From a virus: a stretch of 39,843 nucleotides of DNA. The translations under genes were made by a program, and so were the position numbers. Below, one piece after another: positions 5,335 to 31,683 of the stretch. The first letter of the stretch is position 1. Each line of letters starts with the position of its first letter. The stretch spans positions 1 to 39,843 of IMG/VR virus record IMGVR_UViG_3300020421_000060; one strand, given 5' to 3'. Under the pieces are notes generated by a model. It was not told where the DNA came from. It was given only the letters and a program-made list of their open reading frames with translations, and searched no databases.

Positions 5335-7131
5335 TTACTCTTTATATGCAGTGAATGAAGAATTGGCAACATCAACATCTAGATAAACTTCACGTAGTGC
5401 CTTAACATCATTGGATTTTGGTTTAACTCTAATGGAAATGCGATTGTCAAAGAAACTACCTTTAATAATAGTCAAATTATACAACTTAGTTTCGCCTTTC
5501 ACATAATCAATGTCACCAATATCCTTGTCAAGGACAACTTTTTCACCAGTTGCAGTATCCAGTCTATATAGGACGATTTTGCCATCGCTGTCCTCTAGAT
5601 ATACATCAAAATTAGGATACTCTGTTACTCTAAACCCAGTGCTAGACAGGGTAGGTTCATCACAGTCCTTATCAAACTCATTTTGGAAACATACTTCATA
5701 AAAGAAAGTTGAATTGAGTGAAGGATAAAAATCCTTTCTCATTGTTACTGCTGTTATATTAGAATTGATAGATCTATCTGCATCATCTATAACGGCAGCT
5801 GCCTTACTATGCCTAAACTTACCATTAAACTTTTCAGTCTTACTAGTCTCAAGATAAGACTGTACACCACCAATAACCTTGTCTCTAATCTGTGAAGTAG
5901 TTTGATCTGTAACACTACCATCATAATAGATCTTACTTGCTAGCTCAACATATAGAACTGATGGATCTACTAATTTTGGTTCTACTGAAGCAACGACATA
6001 CTTCTTCAACTCTTTTACAATCTCTTGTTTTGTTAAAGATGTTAGATAGGTTGCATCTTTTGGTTTTAATGATATAAAAACTTTACCATATTCTGGAGGA
6101 TCTTGATCTTCTCCACCAAAAATAATGATATCACTTGTTGCTGGATATACTCTTCTAACAATTGCTTCGTAATCTTGTGCTGTTACTGCTCTTTCCTGTG
6201 TTCCATATGACTTAGGAGCAGTATATTTGATCTTATCAATAGTTTCAATCTCTTCACCACCAGATGCAGCAACTGTAGAGTCAATAGTGGTAGTAAACGC
6301 ATTTGGAGTTACTCCATCAGGATTTTCCAATACACCAGAGAATATAAAGGTTTTAACACCATTACTCTCTGAACCTGAGGTTGTTAGGTATGATACTTCA
6401 ATACGTGTACTGTCTTCTAACTTCTTGCCGAGAACCCCGTCACCCACTAGGATCTCATACCTCTCATCTTCAATCTCATCTAAGAAAAAGACTTTAGATG
6501 CTCCATCAACACCAAGTATATTATCTGCTATTAGATATGGTTCACTAAAGCTTCCACCGCTAGGGAAGACTTTTACTCTAATAGTATTGGTGTCTATGTT
6601 TTGATTATCAAGAATAAACCTTTGTGATTTCTGCGATGCATCAATAGTAAATGTATTAGTAAGTGATGTTCCCTCTTTTACTGGTACATTTGTGAATATT
6701 GCTGTATCATTTGCTACTTGTGCTTTATAATCATCTAAAACAACATATTGATAAATGTTGTTATCATAATTTGTTATAAAACCTGTACCCTTCTTAAGTA
6801 ATAACTCTGTATCACTTGTTGGGTTTGAATAATTTACTGTAAACGAAACATACGCTGTAGGAGACGTAGCAGATTTTGGTCTGTACCCTAACTGCTTTGC
6901 TATTGCTACTACGTTGTCTCTGAGAGTGGCAGAATCAATGAATAGTTCATTGACTACCATATTAGTATTAAACGCCGTATAGTACGTATTGTAGGCAAGT
7001 GTGTCTACAAGAGTTGCTAGTGCCGATCCCTCAAAATCATAATCAGTAAAATCTGACTGTGACTTTAGATATTCCTTAAGGGCAACTTTGATATCCTCAA
7101 AGTCTAAATTGGCAACCTGAGTATAAGGCAT
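5335..7131 (-). CDS. 6: Baseplate wedge subunit gp6
   Basis: 598 aa, close to T4 gp6 (660 aa). The N-terminus holds the typical gp6/baseplate-J segment with DFEGSALATLVDTLAYNTYY and then NELFIDSATLRDNVVAIAKQ (about residues 39-85). The middle shows the J-like fold region with KSYGTQERAVTAQDYEAIV (about residues 309-327). In the virion gp6 dimers link neighbouring wedges around the baseplate hub. The ATG at 7131 overlaps the gp25 stop by one base (TAATG), so translation is probably coupled. gp25 followed by gp6 is also the T4-like order. Confidence 0.93.
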   Translation of the reverse strand: MPYTQVANLDFEDIKVALKEYLKSQSDFTDYDFEGSALATLVDTLAYNTYYTAFNTNMVVNELFIDSATLRDNVVAIAKQLGYRPKSATSPTAYVSFTVNYSNPTSDTELLLKKGTGFITNYDNNIYQYVVLDDYKAQVANDTAIFTNVPVKEGTSLTNTFTIDASQKSQRFILDNQNIDTNTIRVKVFPSGGSFSEPYLIADNILGVDGASKVFFLDEIEDERYEILVGDGVLGKKLEDSTRIEVSYLTTSGSESNGVKTFIFSGVLENPDGVTPNAFTTTIDSTVAASGGEEIETIDKIKYTAPKSYGTQERAVTAQDYEAIVRRVYPATSDIIIFGGEDQDPPEYGKVFISLKPKDATYLTSLTKQEIVKELKKYVVASVEPKLVDPSVLYVELASKIYYDGSVTDQTTSQIRDKVIGGVQSYLETSKTEKFNGKFRHSKAAAVIDDADRSINSNITAVTMRKDFYPSLNSTFFYEVCFQNEFDKDCDEPTLSSTGFRVTEYPNFDVYLEDSDGKIVLYRLDTATGEKVVLDKDIGDIDYVKGETKLYNLTIIKGSFFDNRISIRVKPKSNDVKALREVYLDVDVANSSFTAYKE

Positions 7132-8624: not shown

Positions 8625-9619
8625 TGTATTTCTCCTATAACAAATGAATCATATGACTCTACTAAAGAATCGTAAGCTCTAAGAACGAATAGTGTATCGT
8701 CAACTGCAGTAGGTGGAACAACCAAGCAATAACCTATGCCCAAATTAAAAACTCTCTTCATCTCTTCTTCTTCTACTTCTCCAGCGTTCTGAATGACGTT
8801 AAAGATTTCTGGACGTTTCCACGATGTGTAATCTACTTCTGCTCTGAGACCCTCTGGAAGGCATCTGGGAAGGTTTTCCACAAGTCCACCTCCTGTAATG
8901 TTTGCCATGGCAAGAACAGGTACATTATCTATTAACTTTTCTACTAGTTTAGCGTAGATTTTAGTAGGAGCAAGTATTTCAGGGTGTTCACTTATAAACA
9001 ATTTATGACGGAATGTAAGATACCTAACCAGACTAAACCCATTACAGTGTAAACCACTGCTTGAAATACCAATTATCTTATCTCCTTTCTTTATATGCCT
9101 ACCATCTATTATTTCATTCTCTTCTACAACACCAGTACAGAAACCAGCAAGCTCTAAATGACCTGGATCTCCAGGACGTTCACCATGTTCTGCTGTTTCT
9201 CCTCCAAGTAGTGTACAACCTGATTCTTTACATGCATCACCTATGCCCTCTACAAGGGGTTTGAGGAGTTCTGGTCTAAGTGTATTACATTTGATATAGT
9301 CCAAGAAGTACAGAGGTTCTGCACCGCATGTGATAACGTCATTGACACACATAGCAACTAGATCTTGTCCTACATCTTTCATAACATCTAGATTACCAGT
9401 TGATTGTAATGTTGTAAGATAACCTTTGTTACCTACTCCATCAGTACCAGATACCAAAACAGGATTATTATATCCCTCTGGTATTCTCATCATTCCATTA
9501 AAACCACCAAATCCACCCAAGACCTCTGGTCTATGAGTAGATTTTACGATATCTTTAATGTCATTAACAAAATTATTACCAGCATCTATGTCAACACCAG
9601 CAGTTTTATAATCAAGCAT
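8621..9619 (-). CDS. purM: Phosphoribosylformylglycinamidine cyclo-ligase (AIR synthetase)
   Basis: 332 aa, near the bacterial length of about 345. PurM closes the imidazole ring (FGAM to AIR, ATP-dependent). Visible motifs: GVDIDAGN (residues 8-15), the ATP-binding VSGTDGVGNK (about 56-65), DLVAMCVNDVITCGAEPLYFLDY (glycine-rich domain), LLGGETAEH (about 137-145), and GISSSGLHCNGFSLVR and NITGGGLVENLPR in the C-terminal half. It lies directly upstream of purC with a 4-nt overlap and starts 8 nt inside the upstream oxygenase gene, so the three are likely co-translated. Confidence 0.95.
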   Translation of the reverse strand: MLDYKTAGVDIDAGNNFVNDIKDIVKSTHRPEVLGGFGGFNGMMRIPEGYNNPVLVSGTDGVGNKGYLTTLQSTGNLDVMKDVGQDLVAMCVNDVITCGAEPLYFLDYIKCNTLRPELLKPLVEGIGDACKESGCTLLGGETAEHGERPGDPGHLELAGFCTGVVEENEIIDGRHIKKGDKIIGISSSGLHCNGFSLVRYLTFRHKLFISEHPEILAPTKIYAKLVEKLIDNVPVLAMANITGGGLVENLPRCLPEGLRAEVDYTSWKRPEIFNVIQNAGEVEEEEMKRVFNLGIGYCLVVPPTAVDDTLFVLRAYDSLVESYDSFVIGEIQ

Positions 9620-13614: not shown

Positions 13615-13710
13615 TTAAAAGAAAGAGGTTAGTAGAGCTAGTGCCACTTCAACGAGTGTCACTGTGCGTGTGTCTGCCTTGGGCAGATATGGCATAGAAT
13701 AGTGGGACAT
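13615..13710 (-). CDS. Possible 31-aa peptide
   Basis: A 31-codon frame (MSHYSMPYLPKADTRTVTLV...) with a hydrophobic C-terminus (EVALALLTSFF). The start overlaps the stop of the HicA-like gene by one base (TGATG) and its stop is 1 nt before the next ATG. That exact fit argues for a real coupled gene although no ribosome binding site is visible. Confidence 0.4.
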   Translation of the reverse strand: MSHYSMPYLPKADTRTVTLVEVALALLTSFF

Positions 13711-16842: not shown

Positions 16843-16867
16843 AGAAAAAAAGCGGGGTGACCCGCTT
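16843..16867 (-). terminator. Rho-independent terminator
   Basis: Minus strand AAGCGGG-TCAC-CCCGCTT followed by a run of T (complement of 16845-16851), starting within the TAA stop of the 16866 gene. Confidence 0.88.
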
Positions 16868-17186
16868 AGTGTAATCCGATTTCAAAACCACTGTCAAACG
16901 GTTGTGATCCGAGTGGGGTGGATACGTACCACTCCCAGTTTCTCTGAAATACTCCTCCAACCCCATATGCTATCCCGTCAAGGATTGCATTCAATCTGGA
17001 TTTGGTTGTATTACTACGCCAACCCCCATCATATAGGGTCACCTTATCAGGTTGAACAGTTGCGATGTGATTATTATGTAAATACACTGTCGCAGTGTCA
17101 CCTGTGATGCAAACCTCAGTATTGTCCTTATGCCAATCCATTCTGTTACGAATAGCGTTGTTCATTTCGGATTCAATCTTTCTCAT
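16866..17186 (-). CDS. Small conserved-type phage protein (GGWRSNTTKSRLNAIL motif)
   Basis: 106 aa from ATG 17186. It holds DTATVYLHNNHIATV, then VTLYDGGWRSNTTKSRLNAI, then VFQRNWEWYV and a final DSGFEIG. Together with the gene at 14883 it belongs to the style of small phage proteins with a conserved 'T(S/T)..R(H/L)N..L' core; function unknown. An in-frame ATG at 17210 lies only 4 nt after the -10 box, so the start at 17186 (28 nt, as in the other copies) is preferred, unless the mRNA is leaderless. Confidence 0.65.
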   Translation of the reverse strand: MRKIESEMNNAIRNRMDWHKDNTEVCITGDTATVYLHNNHIATVQPDKVTLYDGGWRSNTTKSRLNAILDGIAYGVGGVFQRNWEWYVSTPLGSQPFDSGFEIGLH

Positions 17187-17214
17187 AAATGCTTGGGGTG
17201 CCGTGTACATTATT

Positions 17215-17269: not shown

Positions 17270-17417
17270 CACCGTAGTCCTCCCTATAGTCCTTGAATTT
17301 TGCTATCTTACGTTTATGTGATCGTTTCACATTCTTAATATCATATCCTCTAGTATCTGATTCATCATCGTAGGTTGGTCTTCCCGTCTTAGTAGGACGA
17401 AAGTTCTTTTTAGACAT
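17262..17417 (-). CDS. Small basic protein
   Basis: 51 aa (MSKKNFRPTKTGRPTYDDES...), Lys/Arg-rich (IKNVKRSHKRKIAKFKDYRE), possibly nucleic-acid binding. Read from the minus strand. No family recognised. Confidence 0.6.
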   Translation of the reverse strand: MSKKNFRPTKTGRPTYDDESDTRGYDIKNVKRSHKRKIAKFKDYREDYGDS

Positions 17418-17448
17418 TGCCTTGATAGTTTTACAACAAAATGGATAG

Positions 17449-17685
17449 TTATTTAGTGACTGGGACTAGTTTATTCTCTTTGATTAGAGAATGAAGTAGT
17501 TTTCCACAGCTTCCCTTAGTTTCTAAGGTCTCTGACAGTCTTTTAGTGAAATTAGATGTGTTTTCACAGCTAAATTCATATTCTTTGTCTATATTACTCT
17601 TATATGTAACAAATATAGAGTTTTTATCTACTTTTACTCTGAATAATGCTGAACTATTAAGGTTTTCAAAGTTTTCCACAGGCAT
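17449..17685 (-). CDS. Small hypothetical protein overlapping DnaA-box repeats
   Basis: 78 aa (MPVENFENLNSSALFRVKVD...). It alternates beta strands (FRVKVDKNSIFVTYKSN) and ends with a helix-like part containing KGSCGKLLHSLIKENK. That layout weakly recalls KTSC-type small domains. Two TTTTCCACA sites (17500-17508 and 17672-17680) lie inside it, the second over the start codon. Its messenger would begin about 200 nt upstream at promoter copy 7. Confidence 0.5.
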   Translation of the reverse strand: MPVENFENLNSSALFRVKVDKNSIFVTYKSNIDKEYEFSCENTSNFTKRLSETLETKGSCGKLLHSLIKENKLVPVTK

Positions 17686-17779
17686 GTTAAATGTTATTTC
17701 TTTAAAATTGTTAAAAAGTGAAAAAAAGAGTTTTTTAACTTTCTAAGATTTCTCAAAAAGACAAAAAAGTCAATTTCTG
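17686..17779. other. AT-rich tract between DnaA boxes (possible unwinding element)
   Basis: About 95 bp almost entirely A/T, containing an inverted repeat GTTAAAAA...TTTTTTAAC and runs of A and T. It lies between the box at 17672 and the tight group of boxes at 17782-17858, as expected of a DNA unwinding element. Confidence 0.55.
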
Positions 17780-17898
17780 AGTTTTCCACAGGTTGTGGAA
17801 ATGTGGAAAAGTAGTTTTCCACAGGTTCTGAAGTTTACCGAATGTTTAGTTTTCCACAGGTTGGGGAAAAACTCAGGATCCTCCTTAACTCTCCCCTT

Positions 17899-17953
17899 AT
17901 TATAATGGATCTCTGAGTGATTCCGAGGGTTTGTGTGCCACTTTGAGGACTGG
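17899..17953 (-). promoter_or_regulatory. Dyad promoter module, copy 7, firing into the origin
   Basis: Minus strand: CCAGTCCTCAAAGTGG (17938-17953) with wider arms TGTGCCA...TGGCACA, 34 nt, TATAAT (17899-17904), then AAGGGGAGAGTTAAGGAGG. No ATG follows the AAGGAGG. The transcript would cross the DnaA boxes and AT tract for about 200 nt before the 17685 ATG. Confidence 0.65.
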
Positions 17954-18040
17954 CACAACCGTACTTGACTTTCGGTAGACTGCAGGCTAAGACTACATCA
18001 AGAGAGCACCTTACCTATATTTAATTAAACATTTCAAAAG

Positions 18041-18072
18041 TTTTCCACAACCTCAACAATATCTGTGGAAAA
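18041..18072. repeat. Inverted pair of DnaA boxes
   Basis: TTTTCCACA (18041-18049), a 14-nt spacer, TGTGGAAAA (18064-18072). Further downstream at 18098-18110 is a small palindrome AGGATACTATCCT. Confidence 0.6.
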
Positions 18073-18117
18073 CCCAGTCACTTCAGTGCACGGATAAGGA
18101 TACTATCCTATACTATC

Positions 18118-18249
18118 TTATGACTTATTGTCTTTCTTATCTCTCTTACGTAATGGTGTCTTCTTACCCCTTAGTAGATCATATTTTAACTTCTTTAGAT
18201 ACTTAATATGATCACTGACATTATGAAATCCCCTTAGTCTTAATGTCAT
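18118..18249 (-). CDS. Small basic protein
   Basis: 43 aa (MTLRLRGFHNVSDHIKYLKK...), ending GKKTPLRKRDKKDNKS, strongly basic. Overlaps the upstream gene by 29 nt. Last gene of the 20709-18118 run. Confidence 0.5.
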   Translation of the reverse strand: MTLRLRGFHNVSDHIKYLKKLKYDLLRGKKTPLRKRDKKDNKS

Positions 18250-18607
18250 ATTCTATTACTATTTTATTCCATGATCTACCTGTTGAATCATGACATGTAC
18301 GTCTTTCCATTGTACCATCTAATAGAGTAGTCAGTGTTAACAACTCTGCAATGATATCTCCTTTGTCTACACTTACATTATCTTCTATTTTATCATCACT
18401 GTTAGGCATGGTTGCAACTAAATGATCAACACAATCCTTATAGTCTGTACCAGTTGTTATGCATTGTTCAACATCATTAGCTGTAAACTCTTTGGATATG
18501 TCACACTCATGGTATTCTACGACACATTCTTCATTAGATTTGTCTGTCATACATTCCATTAGTTTATCTGTACAATCCTCCTCGTATTCACCTATTGATA
18601 GTTTCAT
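18221..18607 (-). CDS. Cys-rich acidic protein
   Basis: 128 aa from ATG 18607 (MKLSIGEYEEDCTDKLMECM...). The first ~65 residues carry seven cysteines with spacing such as DCTDKLMEC, ECVVEYHEC and later QCITTGTDYKDC, in helical Asp/Glu-rich sequence. This looks like twin Cx(6-9)C helices joined by disulfides or a metal site. The C-terminal part has VIEYDIKTK. Not recognised. Confidence 0.6.
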   Translation of the reverse strand: MKLSIGEYEEDCTDKLMECMTDKSNEECVVEYHECDISKEFTANDVEQCITTGTDYKDCVDHLVATMPNSDDKIEDNVSVDKGDIIAELLTLTTLLDGTMERRTCHDSTGRSWNKIVIEYDIKTKGIS

Positions 18608-25173: not shown

Positions 25174-28100
25174 CTACATCGCTTTGATGATGTATTTAGA
25201 ACGGTGGTATTTAGTGACTAGAGATAAACTATCTTGAACACTTGCACTACCCGCTACAGATATTGGTGTAGATGTAGATAGAGTTAATGTACCATCAGTG
25301 AATCTAATATTAGAATCCCTCGCAGTAACTACTCTCCTAATCTCATCAATACCATCCTCAGGTCCACAAGTACCATCATTACCAGGAATTGATGCATTTA
25401 ATGTTGGAACAAATATTCTTTCAGAGTATGTTGCATACCTAACACCAAACATTGCAAGACCCCAGTTGTCATTAACAGATCCACCTTGTTCATTTGGGTT
25501 ATCTCCTGAACCATCTGGTCTTGTTTGTCTTATTATTAAATAGATACCATTTATTCTTGCATCACTTTCTTCATCAATATCAATACTATAATTCGCCCAC
25601 CCTGAAGTTGATACAGACTGTGGGTCTGCTACAGCTTGAAGAACACTTTCAGATGTGGCATCCAATGATACCTTATAATAACAATCTATTGCTTCTTCTG
25701 GTGTTTCACCACCATTAGATCCATTACCTTTAATAATACCAAATGTAATCTTATTAGCATTGAGTAAGTTTAATGGACCAATTTGCAAGAATCTACTACC
25801 AAGACCAGTGTATCTAATATGTCTATTAGACATACCATTACTGATATTAGTTGCAACTGCAAAGTTATCACCAACAGATCCAACAACAGTCATATCATCA
25901 GTTGATGAATGCCATATGTTAGCTGCAGCACCTTCAAATGCAGCACCTGCTGCTGATATATCATAAGCACCATCTGGGAAGTTTGGAACTTCATAATATC
26001 TACCTGAAGGATCAGATATACCAACTACATCATCATCGCCAGGTAATCTACCATAACATCCTATTTCTACTCTACCTGAATTACCATTTTGTATAGGATC
26101 ACCTTGGTTACCTGCACCACCTGATCCACCATTTCCAACTTCAACAAAGAATGATGTTGATATATCATCTGAAGTAGTTAATGGTTGAATTCCTATATTT
26201 AATGCAGCACCACCGCCTCCACCACCACCAGAGGGGTTTGCTCCATCTTCTTCAAAGTATGCAGTAAGTGTAACATACCCACCACCTGTGGATCCAGAGG
26301 ATTCACTAGGAGATGTGACATAAGTTGTACTAATTGCTGATCTACCAGCATTACCACCAGATCCTGAACCTGTATTAACATGACCAGCACCAGCGACACC
26401 ACCAGCACCACCATTACCTCCACCAGTAGGTCCAGCACCACCGCCGCCACCTCCACCTCCTCCAGAGGTACATCCTTTTGATCCACCATTTCCACCAGGA
26501 TTGAATGTGAATAGATTATTCTCATATAAACTTGCTGTTGGTCCTAGACCTGCACCACCAGTCCAGCATGGGTCAGTAGTACCAGCACCGTTATAACCAC
26601 CACCTGATCCACCGCCGCCACCGCCGCCGCCAGCACCAGCAATTGCTTGACCAAATCCAACATTTAAAGAAGTGGTACCACCACCACCTCCACCAGATCC
26701 ACCATTACCCCATGCACCTGATCCTGAAGTTCCACCATTTCCACCAGCAGCACCAGCACCACCATTAGCTGCTGGTTCACCTGTTGCTCCTACTTGTTGG
26801 TTTACACCTTGTTCTCCTTGCTGTCCTATAACCCAATCAAGTACACCATTGAAGTTATTTAATCTTCCTGTAACCCTTCTACCTGGAGATGCAGTACCAC
26901 CACCATAACCACCAGCACATCCTCCTATACCATTAGCAGGTCCATTACCACCAGCACCACCAGAAATATCAAAATCTACATATGATATTGAAGCAATTTC
27001 TTCATCTGGTACTCCAATAATATCATTAACATCAATACTACCACTAGTAACATTTGTACCAGTAACAGTTAATTCTTCTACCCTAATATTCCATAGATCA
27101 GTACCTGCACTAGTTCCCTTACTATATCTAAATGAACCAGCAGTAGCTCCAGTTACTATCTGTGCACCATCTGAGTTACTACCAACACTTGCACCATTAT
27201 AATAATATGTGTATGTTCCACCTCCACCACCACCTTGTAATTGTTCTTCTTTTACTCCAGTTACAAAATTCATTTGTGATGTATTATTATATGCAGCAGA
27301 ACCAGGTATGTTAGCTACTTCACAAACACTAAACCTTTGAGTTGGAGAGTGTTCATAGTATGGGAAGGTCATCTGTTGTATTTCTACTTCATACCTAGTT
27401 TGTGGTCCTTGGTTGATAGCAACAACTTCTACCTTAGCATTACAATCAGTTCCATCAGCATCCTTGAAACATATACCAGGAAATGCTGGTGGTGATGGGA
27501 TAGGAGTAAATCCAGCAGCATTATTACCTGTTATCGTAACAGGATAAGTTGTATTAGCTGATACTGCTATGTTAGTAAAACTAGTAGTATCTAAACCTGA
27601 ACCTGCTCCTTGGTTTTGAGTAAATGATACGGTTTGTCCTCCAATCTGCCATGATACAGTTCCTAATGCATATCCAGCATCTGAAGAATCAGTCCATTCA
27701 AAACGAAAATCTATCTGAGCATAACCATGACCAGTAGTAACTAAGTTTCCATTTGTATCAAAAGCGATTGCAATGTTAGAAGTACCTGCTAACTGATTTC
27801 CTCCTTTAAATCTATAAGGACCCCAATAGTTCCATGTACCATTCTCATATGATGCACCATTTCTTCCATATGGGTTTATTGCTCTTAACTCACCATCCAT
27901 ATAAAAATGGAATCCCATCATGTTAGATTTGTTAGCACCATCAGGAGTAATAGCATCTAGAACCAAACCATCACTATTTGATGTGGTTTCCATAAAGTTA
28001 TTTGGTACACTAGCATTAGGTCCATATATTGTAGACCAACTATCTGGTTGTCCAAATAATGTTGAACCTTGAATCTGAGTACCAGCACCAAGATCCCAAT

Positions 28101-31100
28101 TTAAACCACACTGTACAGATGGCATATCTTTCCAATAGTTTGCTTGTCCTAAACCATTAGGAGTATTAGTTGCAGTTGTTTTAATATCAACTGTACGAAC
28201 TGGTGATATTTGTATGCCACATGGCCATGTTGCTACCCATGATCCAGTAGATGCTCCTGTTAATTCAACATAATTCTGACCAGCACTATAAGCAGGACCA
28301 TATACTTGTGTCCAACTAGTAGATGATGTTGCCCAAGTTTGTGATGCAGATCCTTGAGTTAAGAAATTATCAAAAGAACCAGCACCACCATTACCTTTAT
28401 TATTCCATCCAGATATTGGTGGTAATCCACCAGCAGGAACTGCACCATTACCTACACCACCAGTGCTTCCATTGTCACCATTACTAGTAACATTAAAAGT
28501 AAATCTAGGATCATTGAATATAGCTGCAGGTACTGTCCATGAACCACCTTGTCCACCTTGTCCTCCATTAGTTCCAGCTTGTCCACCTAGTCCACCACCA
28601 GCAGTAACAGTATATGGATTACCATCAACGGTTAGAGTTACAGAGGAATCAAATCCATTTCCACCTGAACCTGAGGAACCTCCTCCTCCACCTCCACCAC
28701 CAGCGATTCTAAGAGTGTAAGATGTAATATTTTCTCCACCTGCAGTTGATGCTATGTTTGCAGTACCACTATCATAAACGTTTAAAAATCTTTCTTCACC
28801 AGTTCCTGGTGTAGTAACTATTATCTCTTTACCACCAATAGTTGTATTATCATCAACTACCCAAACTCTTGGTGTTGGTGTAACAGGAACTTCAGTAAAA
28901 TATCCTGACGCTAATCTAACAGAACCAAAACCAGCAGACTGAGTTTCATCACACAATGCTTGGAATGATGATGTTGTAAAATTAGCTGCTAGAATAGTAT
29001 ATGCACCATCTAAACTAGTTTGTGTGTTTGATAGTATTACATTATCACCAATGTCAAATTCATGAGTACCTACAAATATTACTGTTATAACACCAGCAGT
29101 AGCAGCAGCACTAACAATTGGAAGTGATCCTGGTTCTGTAATTTTATAGTTATAACATCCATCCCAGTTGCCAGATTGACCTGCTCTTAATCCAATCTTT
29201 GCAAGACCATAGGCATCATATCCATTAGGATGGAAAGCAGCACCAGCAGGGTTATTCAGTGTACCAGTAATATTATTGGAACTCCTATACTCACCAATTG
29301 GATCAGAACCTGATACATTACTATCAGATGTCTGTTGTATTTCTATAGTTAAAGGTTGTTCTGCAGCATCTTGATATATTGTGGGTATATCAACTATTCT
29401 ATTCTTCCATACTTGATAACTTGCATCATATGCACCAAATCCAACACTATTATTGTTTATATTATATGAACCAGCAGATTCCATCAGTTCATACCATGTT
29501 GATGTTGGAGCAGTACCAGCACCTGTAAATCTTATTCTAAGATTATCAGTGGTATCATCACATCTTTCACCACCATTAATATCATTACCAGCAATTCCTA
29601 ATGCAAAGAACTGACTATATCCTTCAACATCTAAAGTAAATGATGCACCTCTAGTTGCTTGATGAGATGCGAATATAGTATTTCCTGGACTACCAAATCC
29701 TAGGTACTGTGTTCCACTACCAGGACTGACAAATCCACCAACTTCTCCTACCCCATTACCCCAAGTAATTAATGAACTACCACTTAATGTCCATGTAAGC
29801 TCAGCACTATCAATATCCCATGTCTTATCTGTTAATGCGTTTGTTTGTTCTTTAGATCCAATACCTTCTACATTACCAAAAGTAGCAGTCTTTGGACTCA
29901 ATGGTCTGTATCCTAACAATCCATGAGAGTGACCTAAAGTTTCTCCACTAGGTAGGTTAGGTATAAAGTTCTCAATATATCCTTTTACTTTACCATATCC
30001 TGTGGTAAAACTATCAACACCTTCTGCGTTAGCTTCAGTAATTTCATCTGGTTCACTATGCAATAAGTTATGTAAGTGCTCTGGTGGTCTTGCAAAGATA
30101 TAATCTTCAATCGGTCCTACAGTATAGTTCTTTTCACCAGTTAAGTATGGTTGAACTAATGTAGTAACGTTTGCATATCCTGTAGTAAGAACATCACTTA
30201 TCTCATAGAATTCAACAGGATCTTCAATAGTATCTGTACCAATAAACCATTGTCCACCAACGTCACCAACATTCATAGTGATTCTATCTCCTACCAAAGG
30301 AGTACCAGAACCATTAACACCTTGACCAAATCCAATTAACTTTCTATCTCTATAATCAGGTACTCTAAACTGACCAAGCACCTGTGGTAAATCTGAAATA
30401 CTAAATGCTTTTCTTATTTTAATACGTGGTTGGTTAGTTAAACTACCAATAATTACATCCAAACTTGTGTCTACAATACCAGAATTACCACCAGTAACAT
30501 TAAAATTCTGTGTTAACTGTGGTTGTCTGTTATATAATGGTATTAATGATCCACCACCTGATGTAAAATCTTGATATGTACAAATCTGCTGTGAATTACT
30601 TAATGTTGCTTGTACATGGAATCTATAGATATGCTTCTCACCTGTTGGTGGTTGTGGTCCTGAATAACCATTGTTAACCCACACAGGAGAAGAACCAATA
30701 GATGATTGTTCTACAGTATTTTGTTGTAGTACAACACCACCAGGCATTTGCTGGTTAACACTAAATCCTGTAAATGTATTTGGTATATTCTGAACATGCC
30801 AATTAGTTCTTACATCTGTAGATAAATCTTCAATTAGTATTTCGTATGTATCTACAGTAACACCAACAGGTAAACCACTTAAGTTTGCCCATGAAAATGC
30901 TGGTGTATCATTGTTAGCATTAGCATATTGAGAATAACCTGTAGGATATCCTTGTCCAGTTAAAGGATCATAAGTTCCTGGATCCAAAGCAGGTACAGTA
31001 CCATAATTAGTCTCTGGTAATATAAGAGGATAGTTCTGATCTGCTGTCTGTATTAATGTTATTGATGTTATAACCCAAGTAACAGTACCACCTGGACTAC

Positions 31101-31683
31101 CACCTACATTATTATCAGGATCATAATTTAACAATAACCTGAATACATGAGTATCAGCTTGTGATGCAAGTGATTGAAATGTATCTGAATATTCTAGAAT
31201 ATATTGTGCTCCTTGTACTACCTGTCCATTAGCAGTAGGATAATCATTTAATAATTCAAATGTTAATTGAGCATTATTTGGAACTACTCTTGTGTACTCA
31301 ACAGAATTTGGTATTGGTTCCGAATGTATCTCAGCATATACATTACCATTATCTACAAATGTTCTGTAAACTGTACCTGGTGCACCAGTTGCCTCTGATC
31401 TTATAGCATTATTTGATGTTGCTTCTGTAGTTAAATTATAATCATTACCTATTTTTTCGTATAATAATGGATACCTCCTAATATCATACTGTTCTCCATC
31501 ACAATATAAAAAATTTCTGTAGTTAAATGATGGATCTTCACCACCAGTACCTTCACCAGTTATTGATTGACCTACATCAGTAGAATAACTATCTACCAAC
31601 GAAGGAACGATAGCACCTATACTCATATAGGAGCCTGTTTTATCGCTATAAAAATTTTTGTAAGGAGACCTATATTGTACCAT
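25174..31683 (-). CDS. Giant tail-collar / poly-glycine fibre protein
   Basis: 2169 aa. The N-terminus holds a tail-collar-type segment (IGAIVPSLVDS ... FLYCDGEQYDIRRYPLLYEK). A pair of HxH motifs follows (H536-x-H538, H585-x-H587), as in T4 gp12/gp37-type metal-binding fibre tips. From about residue 990, and densely from about 1480 to 1860, come long glycine-rich tracts with up to nine Gly in a row. The C-terminus (SLVTKYHRSKYIIKAM) resembles those of the two preceding collar proteins. Probably a receptor-binding or surface-exposed fibre. A late-type box (31725-31733) lies 40 nt upstream. Confidence 0.72.
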   Translation of the reverse strand: MVQYRSPYKNFYSDKTGSYMSIGAIVPSLVDSYSTDVGQSITGEGTGGEDPSFNYRNFLYCDGEQYDIRRYPLLYEKIGNDYNLTTEATSNNAIRSEATGAPGTVYRTFVDNGNVYAEIHSEPIPNSVEYTRVVPNNAQLTFELLNDYPTANGQVVQGAQYILEYSDTFQSLASQADTHVFRLLLNYDPDNNVGGSPGGTVTWVITSITLIQTADQNYPLILPETNYGTVPALDPGTYDPLTGQGYPTGYSQYANANNDTPAFSWANLSGLPVGVTVDTYEILIEDLSTDVRTNWHVQNIPNTFTGFSVNQQMPGGVVLQQNTVEQSSIGSSPVWVNNGYSGPQPPTGEKHIYRFHVQATLSNSQQICTYQDFTSGGGSLIPLYNRQPQLTQNFNVTGGNSGIVDTSLDVIIGSLTNQPRIKIRKAFSISDLPQVLGQFRVPDYRDRKLIGFGQGVNGSGTPLVGDRITMNVGDVGGQWFIGTDTIEDPVEFYEISDVLTTGYANVTTLVQPYLTGEKNYTVGPIEDYIFARPPEHLHNLLHSEPDEITEANAEGVDSFTTGYGKVKGYIENFIPNLPSGETLGHSHGLLGYRPLSPKTATFGNVEGIGSKEQTNALTDKTWDIDSAELTWTLSGSSLITWGNGVGEVGGFVSPGSGTQYLGFGSPGNTIFASHQATRGASFTLDVEGYSQFFALGIAGNDINGGERCDDTTDNLRIRFTGAGTAPTSTWYELMESAGSYNINNNSVGFGAYDASYQVWKNRIVDIPTIYQDAAEQPLTIEIQQTSDSNVSGSDPIGEYRSSNNITGTLNNPAGAAFHPNGYDAYGLAKIGLRAGQSGNWDGCYNYKITEPGSLPIVSAAATAGVITVIFVGTHEFDIGDNVILSNTQTSLDGAYTILAANFTTSSFQALCDETQSAGFGSVRLASGYFTEVPVTPTPRVWVVDDNTTIGGKEIIVTTPGTGEERFLNVYDSGTANIASTAGGENITSYTLRIAGGGGGGGGSSGSGGNGFDSSVTLTVDGNPYTVTAGGGLGGQAGTNGGQGGQGGSWTVPAAIFNDPRFTFNVTSNGDNGSTGGVGNGAVPAGGLPPISGWNNKGNGGAGSFDNFLTQGSASQTWATSSTSWTQVYGPAYSAGQNYVELTGASTGSWVATWPCGIQISPVRTVDIKTTATNTPNGLGQANYWKDMPSVQCGLNWDLGAGTQIQGSTLFGQPDSWSTIYGPNASVPNNFMETTSNSDGLVLDAITPDGANKSNMMGFHFYMDGELRAINPYGRNGASYENGTWNYWGPYRFKGGNQLAGTSNIAIAFDTNGNLVTTGHGYAQIDFRFEWTDSSDAGYALGTVSWQIGGQTVSFTQNQGAGSGLDTTSFTNIAVSANTTYPVTITGNNAAGFTPIPSPPAFPGICFKDADGTDCNAKVEVVAINQGPQTRYEVEIQQMTFPYYEHSPTQRFSVCEVANIPGSAAYNNTSQMNFVTGVKEEQLQGGGGGGTYTYYYNGASVGSNSDGAQIVTGATAGSFRYSKGTSAGTDLWNIRVEELTVTGTNVTSGSIDVNDIIGVPDEEIASISYVDFDISGGAGGNGPANGIGGCAGGYGGGTASPGRRVTGRLNNFNGVLDWVIGQQGEQGVNQQVGATGEPAANGGAGAAGGNGGTSGSGAWGNGGSGGGGGGTTSLNVGFGQAIAGAGGGGGGGGSGGGYNGAGTTDPCWTGGAGLGPTASLYENNLFTFNPGGNGGSKGCTSGGGGGGGGGAGPTGGGNGGAGGVAGAGHVNTGSGSGGNAGRSAISTTYVTSPSESSGSTGGGYVTLTAYFEEDGANPSGGGGGGGAALNIGIQPLTTSDDISTSFFVEVGNGGSGGAGNQGDPIQNGNSGRVEIGCYGRLPGDDDVVGISDPSGRYYEVPNFPDGAYDISAAGAAFEGAAANIWHSSTDDMTVVGSVGDNFAVATNISNGMSNRHIRYTGLGSRFLQIGPLNLLNANKITFGIIKGNGSNGGETPEEAIDCYYKVSLDATSESVLQAVADPQSVSTSGWANYSIDIDEESDARINGIYLIIRQTRPDGSGDNPNEQGGSVNDNWGLAMFGVRYATYSERIFVPTLNASIPGNDGTCGPEDGIDEIRRVVTARDSNIRFTDGTLTLSTSTPISVAGSASVQDSLSLVTKYHRSKYIIKAM
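26205..26965. repeat. Poly-glycine tract region of the giant fibre gene
   Basis: At least seven (GGN/GGA)n blocks, seen as dense plus-strand ccaccaccg/ccacctcc triplet runs. The plus-strand frames of Pro codons here are shadows of these Gly codons. Separate smaller tracts are at about 27225-27240 and 28540-28710. Confidence 0.8.

Follow-up and report, generated by a model that had tools for sequence, protein, structure and literature searches.

The window, the whole 39,843-base virus record analysed here, is identified by its sequence as a fragment of a T4-like cyanophage of the family Kyanoviridae. It encodes the T4-like baseplate wedge protein gp6 as a 598-aa open reading frame (5335–7131), whose closest relatives belong to the Synechococcus phages S-B43, S-WAM2 and S-RSM4 (80–81%). 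Searches of the window for tRNA genes and Rfam families found none. The G+C content rises locally to 46%, with a strong C skew (-0.37), at 26001–27000, inside a 2169-aa open reading frame (25174–31683), and the minus strand at 16866–17210 encodes a protein of the Kyano_Gp96 family with a weak, below-cut-off similarity to Colicin_D (E 8e-4).

The element described here spans positions 17449–18072. One side of it is marked by a conserved small gene, phrog_4357 (T4-GC_805; 78 aa, minus strand, 17449–17685, E 1.8e-20), which has relatives in 26 records by tblastn and annotated orthologues in loci L001–L009. Beside the gene lies an A/T-rich tract with AAAAAGT/ACTTTTT-type repeats (17686–17779), a candidate DNA unwinding element. 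The first-pass annotation had described this tract as about 95 bp of nearly pure A/T; it is in fact 80% A+T, yet no other part of the window is richer in A+T. Further along, a -10-like TATAAT hexamer on the minus strand (17899–17904), recognised by comparing loci, is aimed back into the tract, and is followed by the dyad GTGCCA-N10-TGGCAC (17935–17956), a probable operator or activator site. Next come the most conserved block, TTGACTTTCGGTAGACTGCAGGCTAAGACTACA (TTGAC..GCTAAG, plus strand, 17965–17997), which served as the anchor for the homologue search, and a second T/A stretch, TATATTTAATTAAACATTT (18016–18034), which is conserved in the alignment of relatives. A dyad of the form TGTGCCACTTTG..TGTCAC is repeated between small early-type genes at 13641, 16165, 17250 and 17934, and may act more generally in this phage as a regulatory site.

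Distributed over these parts are eight exact copies of TTTTCCACA, the sequence of the cyanobacterial DnaA box, and all eight were confirmed where the first-pass annotation had placed them, between 17500 and 18072. Box 1 (17500–17508, plus) and box 2 (17672–17680, plus) fall within the phrog_4357 gene, the latter at its 5′ end, and hence outside intergenic DNA. Boxes 3 (17782–17790, plus), 4 (17802–17810, minus, inverted with respect to boxes 3 and 5), 5 (17815–17823, plus) and 6 (17850–17858, plus) lie between the A/T tract and the TATAAT hexamer, which points through them. Box 7 (18041–18049, plus) occupies a right-hand slot together with its inverted partner, box 8 (18064–18072, minus), at the recurrent spacing of 23 bp from start to start. 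Two near-matches, ATTTCCACA at 17794 and TTTTCCCCA at 17862, are also present within the array.

The window holds 11 exact TTTTCCACA sites in total, compared with a shuffle mean of 0.68 and a shuffle maximum of 3, while the reversed pattern, used as a control, has no site in the window. The earlier chance estimate of 0.004 sites per 573 bp was too low, the computed expectation being 0.010–0.013; even so, 300 simulated windows never contained more than two sites within any 573 bp. The degenerate E. coli-style pattern TTWTNCACA showed no enrichment in the window beyond the exact sites. Three exact copies lie away from the cluster, at 8874, 10978 and 12560, and these too exceed the expectation for a window of this length.

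That the motif is a cyanobacterial DnaA box, as the first-pass annotation had proposed, is supported by the dnaN loci of Cyanobiaceae, reached via a Cyanobium genome, and by published work. In 27 such loci, 18 of 18 TTWTCCACA sites lie 145–330 bp upstream of the dnaN domain, and none occurs in ~77 kb of other sequence. Two host genomes carry five to six boxes upstream of dnaN, with the same 12-bp tandem spacing as in the phages. TTTTCCACA has been named as the cyanobacterial DnaA box, and domain IV of DnaA binds paired boxes cooperatively in vitro (PMC4674748). Among the phage variants is TTATCCACA, the classical DnaA box. From these matches, host DnaA is very likely the ligand of the phage boxes.

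The cluster is not a private trait of the window, an explanation ruled out by the presence of the block in 73 IMG/VR contigs (pattern search) and by the clusters in cultured isolates. BLASTN with 17300–18300 matched the orthologous intergenic region in 25 Synechococcus and cyanophage records. The aligned relatives share one order: the phrog_4357 gene, the A/T tract, the minus-strand TATAAT, the dyad (GTGNCA-N10-TGNCAC), the TTGAC–GCTAAG block, the T/A stretch and the right-hand repeat slot. TATAAT (ATTATA on the plus strand) is found at -110 to -35 of the block in 34 of 57 non-redundant loci, 26 of these at -67 to -65, where 0.055 hexamers per locus would be expected in the same interval; the dyad is likewise kept in 34 of the 57. 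A generic promoter scan gave nothing exceeding shuffles, and did not call the TATAAT because no -35 matches; the conserved -10 is visible through the comparison of loci only.

At least one TTWTCCACA box flanks the block in 36 of the 57 loci, and the remaining 21 have none. Across 62 non-redundant loci, a count that leaves the window out, 94 TTWTCCACA sites lie within -400 to +250 of the block versus 26 in the other 585 kb, a 54-fold difference in density; the reversed motif gave 3 near the block versus 14 elsewhere. A formal p-value would be meaningless because the loci are related, although the effect is large. The boxes keep to two slots, one next to the A/T tract (-325 to -110), the other after the T/A stretch (+25 to +190), with some lineages using the left side only or the right side only. 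Two start-to-start spacings recur: a tandem one of 12 bp (13 cases ++, 3 cases --) and an inverted one of 23 bp (10 cases).

In the box-less loci the right-hand slot holds palindromes of the TTATTGATTNTCAATAA/TTGAGAACC type or TAGTATCC repeats, or has no recognisable content. The comparison thus shows the DnaA-box module to be a replaceable plug-in, with other repeats filling the same slots in other lineages. The palindromes (TTATTGATTNTCAATAA...TTATTGAGAACC) are Fur-box-like in appearance and occupy the slot in L002, L003, L011, L030, L432 and many other loci; DnaA boxes and palindromes occur together in several contigs and in the freshwater isolate DSL-LC03 (palindromes at L436:2650-2685).

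Seven boxes form a conserved array (0+, 22+, 33+, 54+, 132-, 278+, 301-) in a second cyanophage group (L085, L089, L101, L111, L119, L149, L162, L172 and similar contigs), in which a neighbouring gene is closest to those of S-SRM01, S-CAM7 and S-SSM7. This array surrounds a near-consensus promoter (TTGAC..N17..TACAAT) and ends in a T/A stretch, an anatomy like that of the window's element with a better promoter. Two further viral contigs, L173 and L160, carry five TTTTCCACA boxes at perfect 12-bp spacing.

When 28 complete isolate genomes were scanned from end to end, tight box clusters appeared in 13, every one in this neighbourhood. Triplets are present in Syn1 (58713/58725/58737), S-RIM44 (58893/58905/58917), S-CAM3 (61247/61261/61273), S-PM2 (19231/19244/19256) and S-RIM32 (60807/60821/60833, plus a second pair 1 kb off), and Sf-CH3, Sf-CH11 and Sf-FR1 have 12-bp triplets. 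Pairs are found in Syn9 (52565/52589), Syn33 (46718/46741), S-CAM1 (36320/36332) and S-SM2 (58064/58085), and DSL-LC03 closely resembles the window, its eight boxes spanning 457 bp and occupying both slots. On inspection, the surrounding element is seen in most of the clustered isolates, with that of S-SM2 divergent and apparently intermediate. The other 15 isolates, including S-WAM2, S-B43, S-RSM4, P-SSM2, P-SSM4, P-HM1, S-SSM7, S-CAM7 and S-SRM01, have no cluster. Conservation in related phages, which the first-pass annotation had suggested checking, holds in that the cluster is kept at one orthologous place beside the A+T maximum, and fails in the close relatives S-WAM2, S-B43 and S-RSM4. 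That annotation had counted absence from close relatives, if without functional consequence, against its proposal, an objection that applies in part, since many of them lack the boxes. No cluster is present in 21 of the 57 loci or in 15 of the 28 isolates, the window's nearest gp6 relatives among them, so DnaA cannot be a universal requirement of the element.

By A+T content over 120 bp, the A/T tract ranks first genome-wide in ACG-2014h, S-RIM32, S-WAM2 and ACG-2014j (a tie in the last), and second in S-PM2 and S-RSM4; this rank, first or second in all six complete genomes, holds with or without boxes. Two features of the oriC type are thus present: a cluster of host-type boxes and an A/T-rich region adjacent to it. 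The fixed orthologous position of the cluster, next to the genome's A+T maximum, is what an origin would be expected to show. Taking the A+T maximum, the promoter-plus-unwinding layout and the oriC-type box arrays together, we read 17449–18072, with moderate confidence, as a control element conserved among T4-like cyanophages that most likely serves as one of their replication origins. Several observations run against this reading. The GC-skew peak suggested earlier did not appear, as the skew runs monotonically through six complete genomes and does not switch at the element, a weak test given that the genes lie nearly all on one strand; some 40% of lineages have other repeats instead of boxes; and the -10 has no recognisable -35.

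On the best reading, the element would join the promoter-plus-unwinding anatomy of T4 with host DnaA boxes. Host DnaA would bind the TTTTCCACA boxes, which match the host oriC box, on either side of the element or on both, and DnaA assembly and transcription from the conserved TATAAT promoter would open the duplex at the adjacent A/T maximum. By analogy with the biology of the family, the phage helicase, primase and polymerase would then be loaded, and later replication would be recombination-driven, as in T4. Replacement of the R-loop start by DnaA is not established, since the T4-type layout remains, and the two may act together. We tentatively suggest, as a possibility rather than an expectation, a conserved origin of hybrid type, where host DnaA would act jointly with promoter-driven R-loop opening and where a swappable initiator-binding module (DnaA boxes, TTATTGATTCTCAATAA palindromes or TAGTATCC repeats) could tie firing to regulators of the host's cell cycle or physiology.

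The boxes might instead titrate DnaA in the manner of datA, sequestering the host protein as phage copies rise and so halting host initiation, with the element serving something else. They are exact and of the high-affinity type, and three to eight per phage genome, multiplied by many copies, would outnumber the few exact sites at host oriC loci. Titration would work from any position, yet the boxes are confined to the two slots on either side of a single element next to the A+T maximum, and many phages have just two or three, so we consider this unlikely. DnaA could also act here as a transcription factor, the locus being an early promoter/operator region where bound DnaA times or represses phrog_4357 and its neighbours. 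The conservation of the TATAAT at a fixed offset, the dyad and the TTGAC block fits such a role, as do the position of the window's boxes between the -10 and the gene and the presence of other palindromes in the same slots in other lineages. It would leave the genome A+T maximum at the tract unexplained, however, and the direct 12-bp triplets beyond the block resemble an oriC array more than an operator; we give this account, too, a low probability.

It is quite improbable that the repeats are iterons for a phage initiator, or for another protein whose site happens to share the DnaA-box sequence. T4 oriE does carry 12-nt iterons of undefined role (PMC3016281), and the boxes are replaced by other motifs in some lineages, but the phage sequence equals the host oriC box, the TTATCCACA variant included, which makes coincidence unlikely. 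Least credible of all is that the inverted boxes form hairpins in RNA or single-stranded DNA (a structured RNA or a primosome assembly hairpin): although 17776–17880 folds as single-stranded DNA better than every shuffle (z -5.6), several isolates have direct boxes only, unable to pair, RNAalifold gave no consensus structure over 57 loci, there is no Rfam match and the suspected outer stem shows no covariation, so that the hairpin is largely refuted as a common principle. The three purely direct boxes in five isolates favour recognition by a protein. The suspected outer stem, an inverted repeat around the right-hand slot (CCGCACC..GGTGCGG), was rejected, as pairing with its own partner was no better than with swapped partners.

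The favoured origin reading matters because the replication start of these abundant phages is apparently unmapped, and the element offers one testable locus in the cultured model phages S-PM2, Syn1, Syn9 and Syn33. It suggests that a phage group thought self-sufficient for initiation may also read the host's DnaA, an initiator linked in cyanobacteria to light and the cell cycle. We found no report in the open-access literature of a conserved DnaA-box locus in T4-like cyanophages, just a single theta origin predicted for Syn9, according to a review (PMC2984593).

Host DnaA boxes in foreign replicons, the R-loop origins of T4 and the 12-nt iterons of oriE are already known. The plasmid origins P1 oriR and pSC101 contain DnaA boxes together with a replicon-encoded Rep protein and iterons. 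The phage element would resemble these, and datA-type titration sites, as a foreign replicon or chromosomal site that recruits or binds host DnaA, binding being predicted here; it would differ from the two plasmids, which rely on their own Rep protein and iterons. T4 itself has no known DnaA requirement, which counts against a DnaA-driven origin. Compared with the chromosomal oriC upstream of dnaN in cyanobacteria (for example Cyanothece 51142 and S. elongatus PCC 7942), the phage locus shares exact, clustered TTTTCCACA boxes with A/T-rich DNA alongside, and the 12-bp tandem spacing of the two host genomes, but it has neither dnaN nor dnaA, is centred on a phage-specific promoter, dyad and block, and shows no GC-skew switch. 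A switch of transcribed strand, a trait of T4 oriE, oriF and oriG, was not found near the element, the neighbours in isolates with annotated regions being nearly all on one strand; S-B43 is the exception, with a switch ~1.7 kb away. As in oriF and oriG, a promoter -10 is aimed into an A/T-rich unwinding element, seen here in the sequence and in T4 from the published layout (PMC3016281). Unlike the cyanophage element, the T4 origins have no reported DnaA boxes, and the review does not mention DnaA; the oriF/oriG middle promoter has a MotA box, and in the cyanophages a different conserved dyad occupies the upstream region. The element also recalls oriE, the origin region of T4 in which direct repeats with a 12-nt unit or spacing are likewise clustered and kept in relatives; the likeness is one of unit or spacing, and the sequence and ligand of the T4 iterons may differ. 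Finally, where T4 uses several unrelated origin sites, the cyanophage element is a single conserved locus.
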